This document shows, piece by piece, positions 15,190 through 25,630 of a stretch of DNA of 64,000 nt. The position numbers and the translations under genes were made by a program. Position 1 is the first letter of the stretch, and each line of letters starts with the position of its first letter. Source of the DNA: an uncultured Clostridia bacterium (GTDB lineage Bacteria > Bacillota > Clostridia > Oscillospirales > Acutalibacteraceae); the NCBI GenBank assembly GCA_946493765.1, contig CAMMAZ010000001.1:62001-126000 (forward strand), written 5' to 3'. The notes beneath the pieces were generated by a model. That model made no database searches, was not told the DNA's origin, and worked only from the letters and a program-made list of their open reading frames with translations.

Positions 15190-15539
15190 GGGGGCGTAAA
15201 GGTTTCGACGGGGATTTTGCATCATGATTAGCGAGCAGCGGTGCGGTACCGCTTTAATCCGCCGCAATTTTATAAATTAAACAACAACAATAAAGTTGCT
15301 TTAGCAGCCTAAGTGCTGCTCGTTCCCACCGGGAGGACCACGGCCCGGTGCGGGGCGTCAAACAGTGGTGCACGTGCGTTTGAGAGAACACTGTATCAAA
15401 CCATGAATCAAAGTGTTACCGCAGCCACAAGCCCGTTAACCGGCGTGTGATTGCGGGAAATTTAATCGGTTAACTGCGCTCGGAGAAGGTCATGAGAATA
15501 GATTTTCGGACGGGAGTTCGACTCTCCCCGCCTCCACCA
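15190..15539 (+). ncRNA. ssrA: tmRNA (one-piece)
   Basis: GGGGGCG acceptor pairs with CGCCTCC before ACCA; GGTTTCGACGGGG start; GGGAGTTCGACTCTCC T-arm; tag frame ends ...NNNNKVALAA* (stop 15310-15312). Confidence 0.95.
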
Positions 15540-15778: not shown

Positions 15779-15880
15779 CCGAAATGCTGAAAATATCTTT
15801 TTTATTTTCCTTTAGAGAATACAGAACCGTTGAGAAAGCGGCGGTTTTTCTTACATTTCGTATGTTTATGCGGTTTATTT
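15779..15880. repeat. Imperfect repeat, copy 1 (post-tmRNA)
   Basis: Shares TTTTTTATTTTCCTTTAGAGAA[T/C]AC[A/G]GAACCGT..AGAAA.CGGC.GTTTTTCTTA with 17553-17655. Confidence 0.8.
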
Positions 15881-17127: not shown

Positions 17128-17156
17128 TTGACAAATATTTCTAATCACTATATAAT
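17128..17156 (+). promoter_or_regulatory. Promoter, cdd leader copy 1
   Basis: TTGACA - 17 nt - TATAAT. Confidence 0.8.
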
Positions 17157-17179
17157 ACTATACGTCGACAACATTGCAC

Positions 17180-17220
17180 AAGAGGGTCGTCGGAGAATTC
17201 CGGCGGCTCTCTTCCTTTTT
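17180..17220 (+). terminator. Leader hairpin/terminator-like element, copy 1
   Basis: AAGAGGGTCGTCGG-AGAATT-CCGGCGGCTCTCTT, stem with three G-U pairs, followed by CCTTTTT. Confidence 0.7.
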
Positions 17221-17290
17221 AATTGACAGTTTTATTCTTTTCTGTTATCGTTATATCATATCGTTTTAAAGAGTGAAATGAGGTTTTAAA

Positions 17291-17590
17291 ATGAAATTTG
17301 AAGCATTAATCGATATTGCCAAAAACACGTTAAATCCCAGGCAATTGTCTGAGAATGCAGAGGCCGGTTCTGTTGCCGCGGCATTGGTAACGGATCAGGG
17401 CAACGTTTATCGCGGCGTGTGCATTGATGTTCCCTGCTCCATGGGATTTTGTGCCGAACATGCGGCGATCGCGGCAATGATCACAGCCGGAGAAAGCAGG
17501 ATTGAAAAGTTGGTTGCTGTTTGCGAGGATGGAGATATTGTCGCTCCAACCTTCGAAATCTCAAAAACTCTTTTTTTTATTTTCCTTTAG
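17291..17590 (+). pseudogene. cdd: 3'-truncated cytidine deaminase (lacks the PCxxC zinc site)
   Basis: Matches 25253-25630 up to EDGDIVAP, then diverges into [13 protein letters not shown]. Confidence 0.9.
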
Positions 17591-17655
17591 AGAACACGGA
17601 ACCGTCAAGAAATCGGCAGTTTTTCTTATGTACCGTATATTTATGTGATTTTTTC
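17553..17655. repeat. Imperfect repeat, copy 2 (at the truncated cdd junction)
   Basis: Aligns with 15779-15880. Confidence 0.8.
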
Positions 17656-17890: not shown

Positions 17891-18874
17891 CTACTTGTTT
17901 ACAACTTGTCCTAATATCATTTGTTCGCTTTTATACAAATGACGTATAACATCAATGAGCTGTGGTAACAAAGCTGCTTGTTTCGTATAATTATATTTTA
18001 ATGATAACAAACGTAAATTTTCAGATGCTTTAACGACATCGTTTTCATAAGACGAAAAAATGCAGGGTTCAATATACTTGCATTCAGCCAGCCGCTTCAG
18101 CCGTTTGCACATGCAAATTTTATGTTCTTTCACTGTTAAAAAAGTTCGTGCATCAAGCTGATCCACAATAAGATCGCCATCCAAAACCATTTGGACATAT
18201 TTCTCGAGCATTATCATAGTAATGATTCCACAAATCAAACCCTGTTTATCTTTGCAATCAGGTGTGATACTATGAAGATATTTTTTTATTCCGAAATATA
18301 TATGATCAATTTCTAAGGGGATGCTGATTTCTTCAATACATTTTATCCCCAATAATTCCCCTTGATAATTTACATATTCCGAATGAAACCCTTTATAAAA
18401 ACTCTCTTGCGGTATCTCTAATAAGCCAAAATGCCGATCAGATTTATAGGCTGCGATCGTATAGGTTTTCTGTTTATTATTTAAGCCTAACAGAATACCG
18501 TCATGGCTTAAATGACAATTATTTTCATCCCCTTTGTTTTGAATATAATAATCGTCCACACCCATGAAATTCACATAAAATCCACTTTCTAGCATTGCCT
18601 GTATGTTTTCACCCACACTGTACCGTGCAAATTGATTTATGATTCCCGATTTTTGTAATACTGAAATGTTCCATGCATGCGTATTTTCAACGATAATTCC
18701 CGGAGATTCTTCTTTTCCTGTTAAAAATTTATCATTGCATAAAAGCTGAATGCAATTATTAAAATACCAATTATCAGATGTTGGATTGTTTTGGAGTACA
18801 ATACAAGCGGCAGCTTTCCAATGATATGCACTAAACATAGGGGTATGAAAGGGCAATTCAATTTTATTTTTCAT
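17891..18874 (-). CDS. 327-aa protein of unknown function in a peptide-maturation-like operon
   Basis: ATG overlaps the upstream stop; HAWNISVL...CHLSHDGILLGLNNKQKTYTIAAY suggests a BtrH_N/papain-like fold (weak inference). Confidence 0.6.
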   Translation of the reverse strand: MKNKIELPFHTPMFSAYHWKAAACIVLQNNPTSDNWYFNNCIQLLCNDKFLTGKEESPGIIVENTHAWNISVLQKSGIINQFARYSVGENIQAMLESGFYVNFMGVDDYYIQNKGDENNCHLSHDGILLGLNNKQKTYTIAAYKSDRHFGLLEIPQESFYKGFHSEYVNYQGELLGIKCIEEISIPLEIDHIYFGIKKYLHSITPDCKDKQGLICGIITMIMLEKYVQMVLDGDLIVDQLDARTFLTVKEHKICMCKRLKRLAECKYIEPCIFSSYENDVVKASENLRLLSLKYNYTKQAALLPQLIDVIRHLYKSEQMILGQVVNK

Positions 18875-20270
18875 TTATGGCTGTTCCTCCTGACGACAAA
18901 CAATTTATAATCTGTAAATACATTTTATTCATATCATCAGGTTCCCCCAAACGATAAACCGGCAATCTAAATAACTCATAAAATTTACAACATAAGTTGC
19001 TGAATTCATCTTCTGATAGTTCTCTCTTTTTTCCATAATAACCAGACGTTCCGTCGAAATTGACGAGTGGAAATATTACTAATCCAATAACGTGACAATC
19101 AACACCGCCTTCAATAAAATTAATGGTTCGCTTAATACAATTAAGCCCATCGTCTGCATTCACACATAATATTACCAAGTCTGGCTGCAACCCTAAAATA
19201 AATTCATATTGTCCTAATGGATATGTATTTAAATTTCCTTCATAACTCGTAATCATTCCAGATTGTGTGCCACCGATAATAATATCAACACCTGACTGAG
19301 ATATTTCATTTGTTTTATGATTAATATATTCAATAGTTTCATGCCGACTGATGCTATTCGAGTGATGGAATCCATAGTGAAAGCATTCGTCCATTCCAAA
19401 CAAATATGCCGTAGGCTCTGTTCCGATTTGTCCTACTTTATATTGATCTTGCAAAAACAATTTCCGTAATTGCAGTTGTAATGAAAATTTCCCCTGCTTC
19501 GGACCAGTACCACAGACACATACTGTAGGGGTCATGTGACGAAAAAGTTTGCCGTAAGGGATATGATAAACATCTTCTTTTGTAATCTTCGGCGTAAAAT
19601 ACCGATGGCGGTTTTCAATTTCGATAGTATCGGAAATATCCTCAAACGAATAAATGAATTTATGTTTTTTTTGAAGATTGCTAATCAGTTCGTACCAATT
19701 AAATCGACCCTGCAATAGATAGGATAACTCATAGCAATGTCCAATAATGATCGTATCAAAGCTGTCCCAGTCCAGATTCTGAATGTCCTTGATCCTATTT
19801 TGGCTTTTGAAAGGCATATTCAACACCTGATAGGGATACCTCCCTACATTTCCTGAAAATTTTACGTCATAGACATCAATGATATTAATCCGCAAAAGTT
19901 CCTCAAATCTGATTAGACTATGCATTTCTTTGTTAAATGGAAATATAACCGCATTAGTTGGCATATGGGGTAAGGTGGTATTCTGAACAGATCGTTTATG
20001 CTGCATCAACGGAGGAAGTATGGATCTTTGTTTTAGTTTTTGCCGTACCTTTATCAAACTTAACGGCATAGCAAATTGTGAAATGATTCCAGTCACGTTT
20101 GCACAAGCAAAACTATTCCCCGCAAGAAATGTGTAAGACATGTCTTTCCAAGGAACTCTCTGTAAACTTCCTTTAGCACCGATGTCAACATACGCATCAT
20201 CCAGATAAATTAAATCATTCGGTTTAATACACCGTTCGTCGGAATAAATGGAATCGATGATCATCGCCAA
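18864..20270 (-). CDS. Chimeric protein: subtilase-like C-terminal remnant plus P-loop (DUF1611-like/TIGR04066-like) domain
   Basis: GNSFACANVTGIISQ resembles the subtilase Ser motif; CGTGPKQGKFSLQLQLRKLFL...VGQIGTEPTAYLFG resembles the DUF1611-type P-loop. Confidence 0.6.
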   Translation of the reverse strand: MAMIIDSIYSDERCIKPNDLIYLDDAYVDIGAKGSLQRVPWKDMSYTFLAGNSFACANVTGIISQFAMPLSLIKVRQKLKQRSILPPLMQHKRSVQNTTLPHMPTNAVIFPFNKEMHSLIRFEELLRINIIDVYDVKFSGNVGRYPYQVLNMPFKSQNRIKDIQNLDWDSFDTIIIGHCYELSYLLQGRFNWYELISNLQKKHKFIYSFEDISDTIEIENRHRYFTPKITKEDVYHIPYGKLFRHMTPTVCVCGTGPKQGKFSLQLQLRKLFLQDQYKVGQIGTEPTAYLFGMDECFHYGFHHSNSISRHETIEYINHKTNEISQSGVDIIIGGTQSGMITSYEGNLNTYPLGQYEFILGLQPDLVILCVNADDGLNCIKRTINFIEGGVDCHVIGLVIFPLVNFDGTSGYYGKKRELSEDEFSNLCCKFYELFRLPVYRLGEPDDMNKMYLQIINCLSSGGTAINEK

Positions 20271-21093
20271 ATGTGCTGTTATAGAAATCGTAATATTCCT
20301 TTAAATAATGCGGCATCGTCATTTCACAGGTAAGATTAGAACGAATCAAAATTTTCATTGTTCTTGTATTAACATGATTCTTGATATAGAGTAAGTTATT
20401 AATAATTGTATCAAACGTGAGGCGATTTCCAGCTAAAACTCTGTATTCATTGTGCGTCTTTTTGATACCATCAACCGTTACTGTGATCTCCGTAACTCTG
20501 CTTTTAATTAATTTATCGATATTTGCGGGTGTCAACAAGTACCCATTCGTAGTAACATTTGAAGAATATGGTTTTTTAGCTTTACGGCACAAAGCAATCA
20601 CTTTGTCAGAAACCTCTTCAATTGCTGCAATATTCAACAGGGGTTCTCCGCCAAACCAATTGATTCTAACACCACAGTAATTAGAAATATTTTTTGCTAT
20701 ATAATTGACAATTCCCTCTTTTGTTTCATCGGATAAAACATCTTTTTGAAATTCCAGCGCACAATATTTGCATCGAAAATTACAATCTTTTGTTGTGTGA
20801 ACTACTAAAACTAGGTAAGGACTCATCATACGCTTCATATATAAAAAATTGCGCGCCTCAATTTCGTTTACGCAGTCATCTACAAAATATCCACGTTTTG
20901 TCAGTTCACCAAATATTGCATGATAGTCCATTGATGAACTAAAATCATTGTCTAGCCAATGTAGAACAGGATCAGAATTTTCCCTCTTAATTTTACAAAT
21001 GCTTTCTATACCTCTCAGGCCATTAAATAATAATAGATTGCGATCTTCGTCATAGTCGATAATATTAAACATGGAAGCTTTCAATATTTTCAC
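20224..21093 (-). CDS. Radical SAM peptide-maturase-like protein, apparently truncated at the C terminus
   Basis: TKDCNFRCKYCALEFQ (CxxxCxxC), INWFGGEPLLN, TVTVDGIKKTHNEYR; ends at RFHLFRRTVY* with no SPASM Cys cluster. Confidence 0.8.
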   Translation of the reverse strand: MKILKASMFNIIDYDEDRNLLLFNGLRGIESICKIKRENSDPVLHWLDNDFSSSMDYHAIFGELTKRGYFVDDCVNEIEARNFLYMKRMMSPYLVLVVHTTKDCNFRCKYCALEFQKDVLSDETKEGIVNYIAKNISNYCGVRINWFGGEPLLNIAAIEEVSDKVIALCRKAKKPYSSNVTTNGYLLTPANIDKLIKSRVTEITVTVDGIKKTHNEYRVLAGNRLTFDTIINNLLYIKNHVNTRTMKILIRSNLTCEMTMPHYLKEYYDFYNSTFGDDHRFHLFRRTVY

Positions 21094-21108: not shown

Positions 21109-22902
21109 CTAATTATAGTATTTTGCTTGTTGATCAAACATTTTCCTGTATATTCCATTATAACTTCGTAACTGTTCATGCGTACCGCTTTCAACAATTC
21201 TTCCATGATCAAATACTGCGATAGAATCACAAAATTGACACGACGAAAGACGGTGTGAAATATAAATCACCATTTTATTTTCTGTCAGATCATTAAAATT
21301 CTGATATATTTCATGTTCGGCCATCGGATCTAACGACGCTGTCGGTTCATCCAAAATTGCAAATGGGGATTCGAGATACCATGCACGAGCAATCGCTATT
21401 TTCTGCTGTTCACCACCGGAAGGTTCAAATCCGCATTCATCAAAACTTTTATATATCGAGGTATTAAAGCCATTAGGCAATGATGCCACTTTGTTTTTTA
21501 AACCCAAACGTTCAGTTAGAAAGTCAAGCCTATTTTGGTTAACTTCTTTGTTAAGGCAAATATTTTCTTTCAGAGAAAAGGTGAATAATTTAAAGTCCTG
21601 AAAAACAACAGAGAATAGTTTCATATATTTAGCCGAATCATACTCACTGATATTTGTGCCATCCAATAAAATTTCGCCTTCGGTCACCGGATATAAGCCA
21701 CATAACAATTTTATAAATGTTGTTTTCCCTGCTCCATTTGCGCCTACAATGGATAACTTTTCATTCGAATGAATACATATCGAAATATTTTCAAGCGCAT
21801 ATTCCTCAGAACGAGGATATCGAAAAGATACATTCTTAAATTCTATCGTATGTTGCTTTGTTTCTTGCACTTTTTTCTTTCCTTTTTCAAGACAACTGAA
21901 ATTTTTCATAAACGCAACATATTCATGAGCATATCGGCATCGTTTATAAATATCCTGTATTCCTCCTATAATAGATTGTAAAGACCCGTTAAAATTCTGA
22001 CTGGAGGTTAACAACATTGTGAAATCACCAATAGTGATCATTTTAGTCAATGCTAGAAGTCCAATATATATGTATATAATTCCATCATACACGCCACTGA
22101 ACATATTTTTCACAAAGTCATATCTAAATAATTCGTCCGCCTCCTTATGAAATATTTCCGATAAGTCTTTATTGTATTGATTCGCTTTGTTTACCATCAT
22201 TTCCTCAGCATTATATAGACGAATATCCTTACCGTATTTAAAATCTGATAACTGAGAAAATACATAATCAAAGCCACGGTTCATTTTGGAAAGTTGATCG
22301 TAGTATTTCAACCCAACGTTATTCCTTTTTGCCTCAAATACTGATATTAAAAAAACAAACAGTACAATAACGACTAATACCAAAGGGGCTTTTAAAGCCA
22401 GAACCGATATGACTCCAACTAATATTACAAAGGAGGAAATTATATTTTTAATACAGCCGACTATACCACCAACACCACCCGAATACCAATCCATCCCAGT
22501 TTTCGCTCTTTGTAGGCCATCCAGGATTTGAGGATCCTCCGTATATTCAAATTTCATCTTCATTACATGCAAAGATAATTGCTGATTGAAATAGCGTTCA
22601 AACAAATCATCTATGTTGGACATGGCAGTAGAGATGATAGACAACAAATATGATAACCCTATGTTACCCAGCACTAACACAATTAAATACGTAATAATCA
22701 GCTTTAAGTTCATATTTCCAATCAACTCATCAATCAAAAACTTTGGAAAGAAGATGTTAATAAAAGGATGTATTATGCTTAAAATAATATCTAAAGCTGC
22801 AAGAAGAAAATAGCTCGGTTTATAACGAAATGCTTTAGGAAATAAATAATAAACTGTATCCAGCGTCAACGTGATTGCTTGTTTATTTATTCGCTTTTTC
22901 AT
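21109..22902 (-). CDS. ABC transporter, fused TMD and ATPase (exporter)
   Basis: Walker A VGANGAGKTTFIKL; signature SGGEQQKIAIARA; FAILDEPTASLD. Confidence 0.92.
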   Translation of the reverse strand: MKKRINKQAITLTLDTVYYLFPKAFRYKPSYFLLAALDIILSIIHPFINIFFPKFLIDELIGNMNLKLIITYLIVLVLGNIGLSYLLSIISTAMSNIDDLFERYFNQQLSLHVMKMKFEYTEDPQILDGLQRAKTGMDWYSGGVGGIVGCIKNIISSFVILVGVISVLALKAPLVLVVIVLFVFLISVFEAKRNNVGLKYYDQLSKMNRGFDYVFSQLSDFKYGKDIRLYNAEEMMVNKANQYNKDLSEIFHKEADELFRYDFVKNMFSGVYDGIIYIYIGLLALTKMITIGDFTMLLTSSQNFNGSLQSIIGGIQDIYKRCRYAHEYVAFMKNFSCLEKGKKKVQETKQHTIEFKNVSFRYPRSEEYALENISICIHSNEKLSIVGANGAGKTTFIKLLCGLYPVTEGEILLDGTNISEYDSAKYMKLFSVVFQDFKLFTFSLKENICLNKEVNQNRLDFLTERLGLKNKVASLPNGFNTSIYKSFDECGFEPSGGEQQKIAIARAWYLESPFAILDEPTASLDPMAEHEIYQNFNDLTENKMVIYISHRLSSCQFCDSIAVFDHGRIVESGTHEQLRSYNGIYRKMFDQQAKYYN

Positions 22903-24758
22903 GATTGTTTTTGCTCCTGATTCCTATAATATTGTGCCTGTACCTCAAACAGCTGATAATACTCACCTTTTTTCCGAATTAAGTTTTCATGTGTATCATA
23001 TTCTTTTAAGATGCCGTCAGAGAAAAGCGCTATTGTATCACAAAAGCGTGTGGATGCTAGTCTATGTGAAATATAAATGGCTGACTTTGCTCCAATGATT
23101 TGATCAAAATTTGTATACACCTGATATTCAGCCAGTGGGTCTAAAGCAGATGTTGGTTCATCTAATATAATCACGGGAGCATCCTTATACAATGCTCGGG
23201 CAAGCGCTAACTTTTGCTTTTCACCTCCCGATAAATCAATTCCATCATCATGGAATATCTTTAACATTTGGGAAGCTATTCCGTTGGGAAGTGAATGCAA
23301 TTTATCTTTAAGCCCCACCTTTTCCGCTGCTTCTATTGCCTTGGCTTCATTAGTTTTTTCAGGTATTTTCATCGATATGTTCTCCGATAAGGGAAATGCA
23401 AACACTTCAATGTCTTGGAAAACTGGTGCAAACAATGCGTAATATGATTCTTTACTAAATGTATTGATATCAATTCCATTCAAATAAATACGCCCTTCAC
23501 TTGGCGTATATAAACCGCATAAAAGCTTTATAAAAGTAGATTTACCGGCACCATTTAAACCGACAACAGCCAACCGGGTTCCTGAAGAAATCGTTAATGA
23601 AAGATTTTTCAGTGCATATGTATCTTGCCCTGGATATTTAAAGGAAACATTTTTAAATTCAAAAACATATTGATTCTGCTGCGGTACTTCTTTTCCTCCA
23701 CCTTCTTTACCGAATGCTAAAAAATTTCTAAAATCATTTATCTGACGAGATTGCAGACGCAAATTCGCTATATTTGATAGAAGTGATCCAACCGTATTAA
23801 AAAAAGTACGTATTGTTCCAAGATATAATGTAAAATTTCCAATACTTAAGCTTTTATATAATACGTTATAAATAAGCCAGATATATATAATTCCTTCTTG
23901 AAAAAGTGCTGCAATTTGGTTTAAACCAGTTGCCTTTAACCACCGTTTTTTCGATTCGCTGATTTTATCATGAATTTCACTATCAATTTTTTTATGTTTA
24001 TCCAATAAATATTCTGATAAATTAAATACCCTAATATCCTTTGCGTAAGAAAAATCCTGTTCAACCCCGGCGATATAACCCTGTTCTCGGAATTTTTCAG
24101 AAAGAGTATCCCATGTCTTTATTTTATCCATTTTTTTTGTACGATCTGTGATAATATAACTTATAACAGCTAAGATTAATATAAATCCTAATATCAGAGG
24201 GTTTAAAAACGATATAATTGTAATAGACATAATAATTTTACAGGTGCTGGTAAACAAACCTTGTATGGACCTTAAAAAACCTTCTACACCATCTGAATTA
24301 CCTTCAGTAGCTTTCTCCGCCCTTTGTGAAAGATCCAGCACAGCAGGGATTTCGAGGTTTTCATAATCCATATTTAAAAGCTTTTTCATCCTAAGTGGGA
24401 TAAAACTCATTCGCGCATGAATAATTCTCCACCAATTCTGAAAATTTAAAAAACTGTCTACTTCCATTAAAATGATTTCTGCTATTACAATAAAAATTAA
24501 AGAATATATAAACGATGAGACACTCACATTATTTGTAACTTGATCAATGACTATTTTTGATAAAAATAGCCATATAAAAGTAATAAAAGTACCTACAATC
24601 GCCTGTATAACCATCATCGGTACGAACGCTTTTTGGTTCCTATATACCTGTTTTAATACAAATAAAATATTGCTAAATATAGAATATTCTTTGGTTATTT
24701 CACTTGACTTTTTATATGACATTGTTTTTATAACCCGCCTTCGTAAGATGTATTCCAT
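22899..24758 (-). CDS. ABC transporter, fused TMD and ATPase (exporter)
   Basis: Walker A VGLNGAGKSTFIKL; SGGEKQKLALARAL; VIILDEPTSALD; start could be the internal ATG at 24722; 4-nt overlap with the next ABC gene. Confidence 0.92.
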   Translation of the reverse strand: MEYILRRRVIKTMSYKKSSEITKEYSIFSNILFVLKQVYRNQKAFVPMMVIQAIVGTFITFIWLFLSKIVIDQVTNNVSVSSFIYSLIFIVIAEIILMEVDSFLNFQNWWRIIHARMSFIPLRMKKLLNMDYENLEIPAVLDLSQRAEKATEGNSDGVEGFLRSIQGLFTSTCKIIMSITIISFLNPLILGFILILAVISYIITDRTKKMDKIKTWDTLSEKFREQGYIAGVEQDFSYAKDIRVFNLSEYLLDKHKKIDSEIHDKISESKKRWLKATGLNQIAALFQEGIIYIWLIYNVLYKSLSIGNFTLYLGTIRTFFNTVGSLLSNIANLRLQSRQINDFRNFLAFGKEGGGKEVPQQNQYVFEFKNVSFKYPGQDTYALKNLSLTISSGTRLAVVGLNGAGKSTFIKLLCGLYTPSEGRIYLNGIDINTFSKESYYALFAPVFQDIEVFAFPLSENISMKIPEKTNEAKAIEAAEKVGLKDKLHSLPNGIASQMLKIFHDDGIDLSGGEKQKLALARALYKDAPVIILDEPTSALDPLAEYQVYTNFDQIIGAKSAIYISHRLASTRFCDTIALFSDGILKEYDTHENLIRKKGEYYQLFEVQAQYYRNQEQKQS

Positions 24759-24761
24759 TAT

Positions 24762-24854
24762 CTATTTATAAAATAATTTTTTATAGACTTTTCTGATTAC
24801 GAGTCTGCCTCGATATTTTGATAAGTTATTCTTTTTAAAAATTTCGTTTTTCAT
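24762..24854 (-). CDS. 30-aa very basic small ORF (MKNEIFKKNNLSKYRGRLVIRKVYKKLFYK)
   Basis: Read from the complement; lies between a minus-strand promoter (TTGACA - 17 nt - TAAAAT, about 24.90-24.93 kb) and the ABC genes; SD is weak. Confidence 0.4.
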   Translation of the reverse strand: MKNEIFKKNNLSKYRGRLVIRKVYKKLFYK

Positions 24855-25092
24855 CGTTCCAGAATTGTGAATTAATCCCTTATCCAATTATTGTCATTTT
24901 ACTCAATGATTTGTATTTTGTCAACAGTATATTTCATTTTTTTATATTTTTTTGTAATTATTGAATTATCTGATTTACTGTCACTATTAAGTTTTGGAGT
25001 TACACGAATATCTAAAAATTTGTTTTTTCTCTATGCATAAATTTTAAAGCTCAAGAAATTTAAAAGAATTTTAAAAGATATTCAAAATACTA

Positions 25093-25121
25093 TTGACAAA
25101 TATTTCTAAGTGATATATAAT
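25093..25121 (+). promoter_or_regulatory. Promoter, cdd leader copy 2
   Basis: TTGACA - 17 nt - TATAAT. Confidence 0.8.
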
Positions 25122-25141
25122 ATACATCGACAACATTGCAC

Positions 25142-25182
25142 AAGAGGGTCGTCGGAGAATTCCGGCGGCTCTCTTCCTTTTT
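25142..25182 (+). terminator. Leader hairpin/terminator-like element, copy 2
   Basis: Same sequence as 17180-17220. Confidence 0.7.
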
Positions 25183-25252
25183 AATTGACAGTTTTATTCT
25201 TTTCTGTTATCGTTATATCATATCGTTTTAAAGAGTGAAATGAGGTTTTAAA

Positions 25253-25630
25253 ATGAAATTTGAAGCATTAATCGATATTGCCAAAAACACGTTAAATCCC
25301 AGGCAATTGTCTGAGAATGCAGAGGCCGGTTCTGTTGCCGCGGCATTGGTAACGGATCAGGGCAACGTTTATCGCGGCGTGTGCATTGATGTTCCCTGCT
25401 CCATGGGATTTTGTGCCGAACATGCGGCGATCGCGGCAATGATCACAGCCGGAGAAAGCAGGATTGAAAAGCTGGTTGCTGTTTGCGAGGATGGAGACAT
25501 TGTCGCCCCCTGTGGCAGATGTCGGGAATTCATGTATCAGATCAACAAAGAAAATTTGCGAACAAAAATCATGCTGGCTAACAAAGTCGTGACGCTAAAC
25601 GACTTATTACCGCATATTTGGAAAGACTGA
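25253..25630 (+). CDS. cdd: Cytidine deaminase (intact copy)
   Basis: [10 protein letters not shown] and PCGRCREF zinc-binding motifs. Confidence 0.88.

Follow-up and report, generated by a model that had tools for sequence, protein, structure and literature searches.

The window, the whole stretch of 64,000 nucleotides that was analysed, carries a RiPP (ribosomally synthesised, modified peptide) cluster whose sequence indicates with high probability that a single internal deletion of about 1.2-2.2 kb inactivated it. This size was estimated from approximately 163 missing maturase codons, approximately 153 missing S8 codons and an intervening gap as found in relatives. The case is an ordinary kind of gene decay in a known cluster type, and it exemplifies how a peptide-maturation cluster can die: the middle of the pathway is deleted and two innocent-looking ORFs are left behind. 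Annotation would label one remnant a short radical SAM protein and the other a TIGR04066 protein, and genome miners counting such loci as producers would be misled.

According to the ORF list of the window, the cluster forms a run of five genes on the minus strand. Two intact ABC transporters of the permease-ATPase fusion type (619 aa, 22899..24758; 597 aa, 21109..22902), each matching Pfam PF00005 over the full model, are followed by the 5' part of a radical SAM/SPASM peptide maturase gene (289 aa, 20224..21093), the 3' part of a gene for an S8 protease-TIGR04066/DUF1611 P-loop fusion (468 aa, 18864..20270, TTG start at 20270) and a gene of intact length for a 327-aa protein (17891..18874). 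The two partial frames overlap by 47 nt; their positions, sizes and start codon are those given in the original prediction. Upstream of the cluster, a consensus scan located a promoter-like site on the same strand (TTGACA-17-TAAAAT, 24896..24924; 11 of 12 matches), a likeness that is not evidence of function. The remaining cluster genes are full length with their motifs intact and contain no further stop codons or frameshifts, and the ABC transporters, the P-loop domain and the 327-aa gene look undamaged. The 327-aa protein has no match in Pfam and NCBIfam scans; a relative in locus L009 is 28% identical over residues 3-327 and weaker ones occur in L010, L030, L031 and L035. Such weak full-length relatives adjoin the S8/P-loop gene in some of the related clusters.

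The 289-aa frame, which ends in ...FGDDHRFHLFRRTVY*, contains a Radical_SAM domain (PF04055) with an intact CxxxCxxC motif, whose cysteines (C104, C108 and C111) are invariant among the aligned relatives. It matches only the N-terminal halves of SPASM maturase models (TIGR04463, 1-241/438; Clo7bot, 1-247/440). Its TIGR04463 score of 143 bits is below the curated cut-off of 525, as are those of two intact relatives (151-198). A profile built from 22 longer relatives (409-499 aa), with the window sequence excluded, matches the remnant at positions 8-289/451, and homology stops at residue 288, nearly the last one; in relatives with a complete N-terminus this end falls at about 280-308. The SPASM half, a GG motif following the final core strand and seven near-invariant C-terminal cysteine columns are absent, which bears out the earlier observation that the frame stops without a C-terminal cysteine cluster. 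In an AlphaFold2 model (pLDDT 90.9), the last predicted strand spans residues 281-287 and the model ends just after it, suggesting that the radical SAM core may fold, albeit without auxiliary clusters. By both sequence and fold, the closest solved structure is the thioether-forming SCIFF maturase CteB (5WHY/5WGG), which has a SPASM domain, whereas the remnant has none. An assignment of the core to viperins by PADLOC was rejected, the matches being weak and at superfamily level.

The 468-aa frame shows the reverse picture. A profile of 29 full-length S8/P-loop relatives (587-645 aa, measured stop to stop), again excluding the window sequence, matches it at 154-603/604, with homology beginning at residue 8, equivalent to approximately residue 155-185 of intact relatives. 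The E-values of the two profiles (about 1e-99 and 1e-149), calculated for a target set of two sequences, are far beyond chance. The frame retains the Ser motif GNSFACA, which aligns with the invariant S192 of the intact relative L008, and lacks the subtilase Asp region and any counterpart of two L008 residues, H45 (the His of GHGTA) and N131 (the oxyanion Asn). In agreement, only the C-terminal end of the QhpE subtilase model is matched (140-193/219). The original prediction of a late S8 segment with its Ser motif and without the Asp and His regions was thus correct, but the protein is not a plain protease remnant: it represents the C-terminal part of an S8-TIGR04066/DUF1611 fusion. Residues 107-459 match TIGR04066 at 3-360/361 (E 7.7e-24; 84 bits, below the cut-off of 200), the PF07755 match exceeds its cut-off (26.6 vs 25), and GTGPKQGKF aligns with an invariant GTxxxQGK, so that the P-loop domain is complete. 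The intact L008 protein (L008:5563-7380) folds as a subtilisin domain followed by DUF1611 (TM0796 2G0T and 2OBN), and its S8 domain matches the QhpE model at 2-195/219 with a score of 110, below the cut-off of 165. Shine-Dalgarno sites were found neither before the TTG at 20270 nor before the ATG at 20264 of the 468-aa frame; thus, production of the P-loop domain may be poor although the domain itself is intact.

With the 468-aa protein as query, a scan of 85,462 species genomes of bacteria and archaea yielded 32 loci, and a scan of the 148 nearest available genomes gave a further three strong matches, which lie in a single genome (L025 and L002 carry the same protein). Identity to even the closest relatives is only about 41-50%. 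The uninterrupted order of radical SAM, S8 and P-loop that the original prediction proposed to look for is present in 14 relatives, in which an intact radical SAM gene lies directly upstream of an intact S8/P-loop fusion gene with a gap of 210-1254 bp. An acyl-carrier-like ORF occupies 13 of these 14 gaps (12 by profile; the one in L008 was read directly), and in L015 such an ORF immediately precedes the radical SAM gene. In eleven of the gaps there is at least one short ORF with cysteine and a ribosome-binding site, in most cases of the form MKKLxKP...VxLY...NCxC. Gene order varies among the relatives, several of which carry ABC genes between the radical SAM and S8/P-loop genes.

Very short Cys-rich precursor candidates of 24-35 aa (MKKLxK[KP]...VxLY...C) were noted between the radical SAM and S8/P-loop genes of L011, L015, L021, L022, L030, L034 and L037; a comparison of three of them with NCBIfam gave no relevant match. 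The intact relatives form a consistent group, defined by the S8/P-loop fusion, the carrier and short MKKLxK-type Cys-rich precursors. Since the members tested fall under the NCBIfam curated cut-offs, the group may merit a model of its own. Split frames also occur in related clusters, affecting S8/P-loop genes in L016, L025 and L039 and ABC genes in L009 and L039; these are either frameshifted genes or metagenome assembly errors.

At the boundary between the two remnants, per-codon scores switch from radical SAM to S8/P-loop at 20229..20250 on the minus strand, a stretch of about 22 nt in which one alignment gives way to the other. Because the profile ends and the per-codon cross-over coincide, both truncations arose in a single event or fall on one point. 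The original prediction that one deletion took the SPASM half together with the protease N-terminus is supported by the relatives, as 22 radical SAM proteins run past the break and 29 S8/P-loop proteins have the N-terminus. None of the S8/P-loop homologues among the relatives is truncated at the break point of the window; for two frames of 504 aa the N-terminus is present in a different frame, and the alignment of L028 (552 aa) reaches upstream of the break. Accordingly, L016 and L025/L002 were rejected as further truncations, since their S8 N-terminus is kept in a neighbouring frame (frameshifts). A search of the whole source genome for the missing S8 N-terminus and SPASM half returned no match, and the same queries do score in a control genome (G055). 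The only other radical SAM matches to TIGR04463 in the source genome belong to a separate locus at C1:167-170 kb.

An identical appearance would result from a short-read mis-assembly in which the genes are intact in the organism and the assembler skipped 1-2 kb, through a strain mixture or a collapsed repeat. The genome is a draft of 64 contigs, and the cluster lies between near-identical repeats of about 390 bp, in a region that is difficult for short reads. However, the junction itself is in single-copy sequence, approximately 2.7 kb from the nearer repeat and within a 174-kb contig, and none of the other contigs carries the missing pieces, though this would also hold for a mis-join that lost sequence. 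We consider such an artefact improbable, but it is the main reservation about the deletion. Still less probable is a succession of two or more deletions, affecting the radical SAM end, the intergenic genes and the S8 start, that met at one point. It would explain why the MAMIIDS of the 468-aa remnant resembles the start of full-length relatives (M..IIDSG; the IIDS match is at D12), as if the radical SAM gene had been fused to the start of S8 by a first deletion and the remainder had been lost in a second. Yet the bases encoding MAMIIDS score strongly as radical SAM sequence (FGDDHRF, about 17 bits) and radical SAM similarity extends beyond them (LF-R-V), so that the likeness to the Asp motif is probably a coincidence of sequence. 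One event is also simpler, and we infer a single one.

It is highly unlikely, to a slightly greater degree, that the two proteins are a conserved compact variant, in which a radical SAM enzyme without SPASM and a P-loop protein without protease work as a pair. In favour of it, both frames are open, the fold prediction for the radical SAM remnant is highly confident up to and including the last strand, and no part of the P-loop domain is missing; nonetheless, conserved homologue pairs of 289 and 468 aa were sought and none was found, with no homologue among the relatives sharing these ends. Moreover, the frames overlap exactly where the parent-gene homology changes, as an out-of-frame deletion gives, and the second ORF has no Shine-Dalgarno site.

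Under the single-deletion reading, and by analogy with the relatives, the ancestral transcript would have comprised, in order, two ABC genes, a radical SAM/SPASM gene, an acyl-carrier-like gene, a Cys-rich precursor gene, the S8/P-loop gene and the 327-aa gene. The radical SAM enzyme would put thioether-type cross-links on the precursor cysteines, the S8 domain would remove the leader, and the ABC proteins would export the product. The deletion would then have joined radical SAM codon ~281-288 to remnant codon ~8-14 of the S8/P-loop gene out of frame, taking with it the SPASM iron-sulphur domain and the Asp, His and oxyanion Asn of the protease. To judge from the relatives, whose order is not uniform, the carrier and precursor genes were probably lost in the deleted stretch as well, in which case the original prediction underestimated the extent of the removed DNA. 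With a maturase lacking SPASM, a protease lacking Asp and His, and no precursor found, the product is most likely no longer made. The inactivation is most likely recent. The lack of other stops or frameshifts in the cluster suggests either a recent deletion or continued use of the genes that remain. A non-producing yet protected strain, which lost the maturase, carrier, precursor and protease and kept the ABC pair, the P-loop domain and the 327-aa protein as possible protection against the same peptide made by neighbours, is a conceivable but rather unlikely outcome.

The functions present in the relatives of the locus, namely a radical SAM maturase, a TIGR04066 protein, an acyl-carrier-related protein, a subtilase, an ABC transporter and a Cys-rich precursor, are the same set as in SacP23/CLI_3235-type clusters (TIGR04068 radical SAM, TIGR04066, TIGR04069 carrier and subtilase; PMC10731318). 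The SacP23 cluster, which has radical SAM, TIGR04066, carrier, subtilase and ABC genes, yields an antibacterial product in B. subtilis, and immunity has been proposed as a candidate function of its TIGR04066 protein (PMC10731318). Unlike in the SacP23 type, the subtilase and TIGR04066 of the relatives form one polypeptide; in the window, moreover, the radical SAM protein and the subtilase are both truncated, and neither carrier nor precursor was found. TIGR04463, Clo7bot (TIGR04334) and CefB (NF038107) are among the best family matches of the remnant and of intact relatives and match from the N-terminus, but all scores are far under the curated cut-offs and the remnant ends half way. The QhpD-QhpE pair of quinohemoprotein amine dehydrogenase maturation likewise combines a thioether-forming radical SAM enzyme with a cytoplasmic subtilisin-like leader protease; it differs in its substrate and in having no P-loop fusion, and the locus has no redox-enzyme operon.

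A profile search of the window for an acyl-carrier-like gene gave no match that stands out, and a profile of nine relatives' precursors found nothing convincing there. Elsewhere in the genome, the best carrier match was rejected, as it is the carrier domain ending an adenylation protein of about 550 aa in another cluster. Between the promoter-like site and the first ABC gene lies a Cys-free, Lys/Arg-rich ORF of 30 codons, MKNEIFKKNNLSKYRGRLVIRKVYKKLFYK (24762-24854, minus strand); several relatives have a precursor at the equivalent position, and this ORF could be a divergent precursor. Outside the window, the source genome contains a second natural-product-like locus (L071, G000:C1:158000-174417), which adjoins ParA/ParB-like genes and encodes two radical SAM proteins (476 and 433 aa), a stand-alone carrier protein, two ABC transporters, an adenylation-carrier protein and carboxylase-like genes.

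The cluster is located in a low-GC stretch (0.25-0.38 vs about 0.45) that starts approximately 400 bp past the tmRNA gene, a setting that looks like acquired DNA. No integrase was noticed in this stretch. Searches of plasmids and IMG/VR gave no match, and a phage search gave a single weak match, to a faecal contig that carries no annotation. The S8/P-loop gene was sought in three genus mates without a match. A copy of the tmRNA 3' end beyond the far edge of the low-GC stretch, of the kind expected after site-specific integration, was sought within the window, and no match of at least 11 bases was found. Nor could an empty site be defined in the genus mates, where smpB-tmRNA synteny is kept and the downstream sequence differs. 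For the tmRNA gene itself (15190-15539, plus strand), the tag given by ARAGORN, AARSHREDHGPVRGVKQWCTCV, is implausible; the ending of a normal tag, ...NNNNKVALAA*, is read in another frame.

The near-identical direct repeats of about 390 bp that flank the cluster consist of a promoter end, a terminator-like hairpin and the first ~86 codons of a cytidine deaminase gene, which was not found in any of the three genus mates. Repeat comparison placed the left, truncated copy at 17155..17548 and the right one at 25117..25510, both on the plus strand; the latter is the start of an intact 125-aa deaminase gene (25253-25630), identified by Pfam. A further repeat of 90 nt, at 15790-15879 and 17565-17654 (plus strand; 81% identical), has its second copy beginning just past the break of the truncated deaminase copy, and a pattern derived from it found no other close copy in the genome. 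Each deaminase-start copy carries a perfect-consensus promoter (TTGACA-17-TATAAT) and a terminator-like hairpin of 15 pairs.
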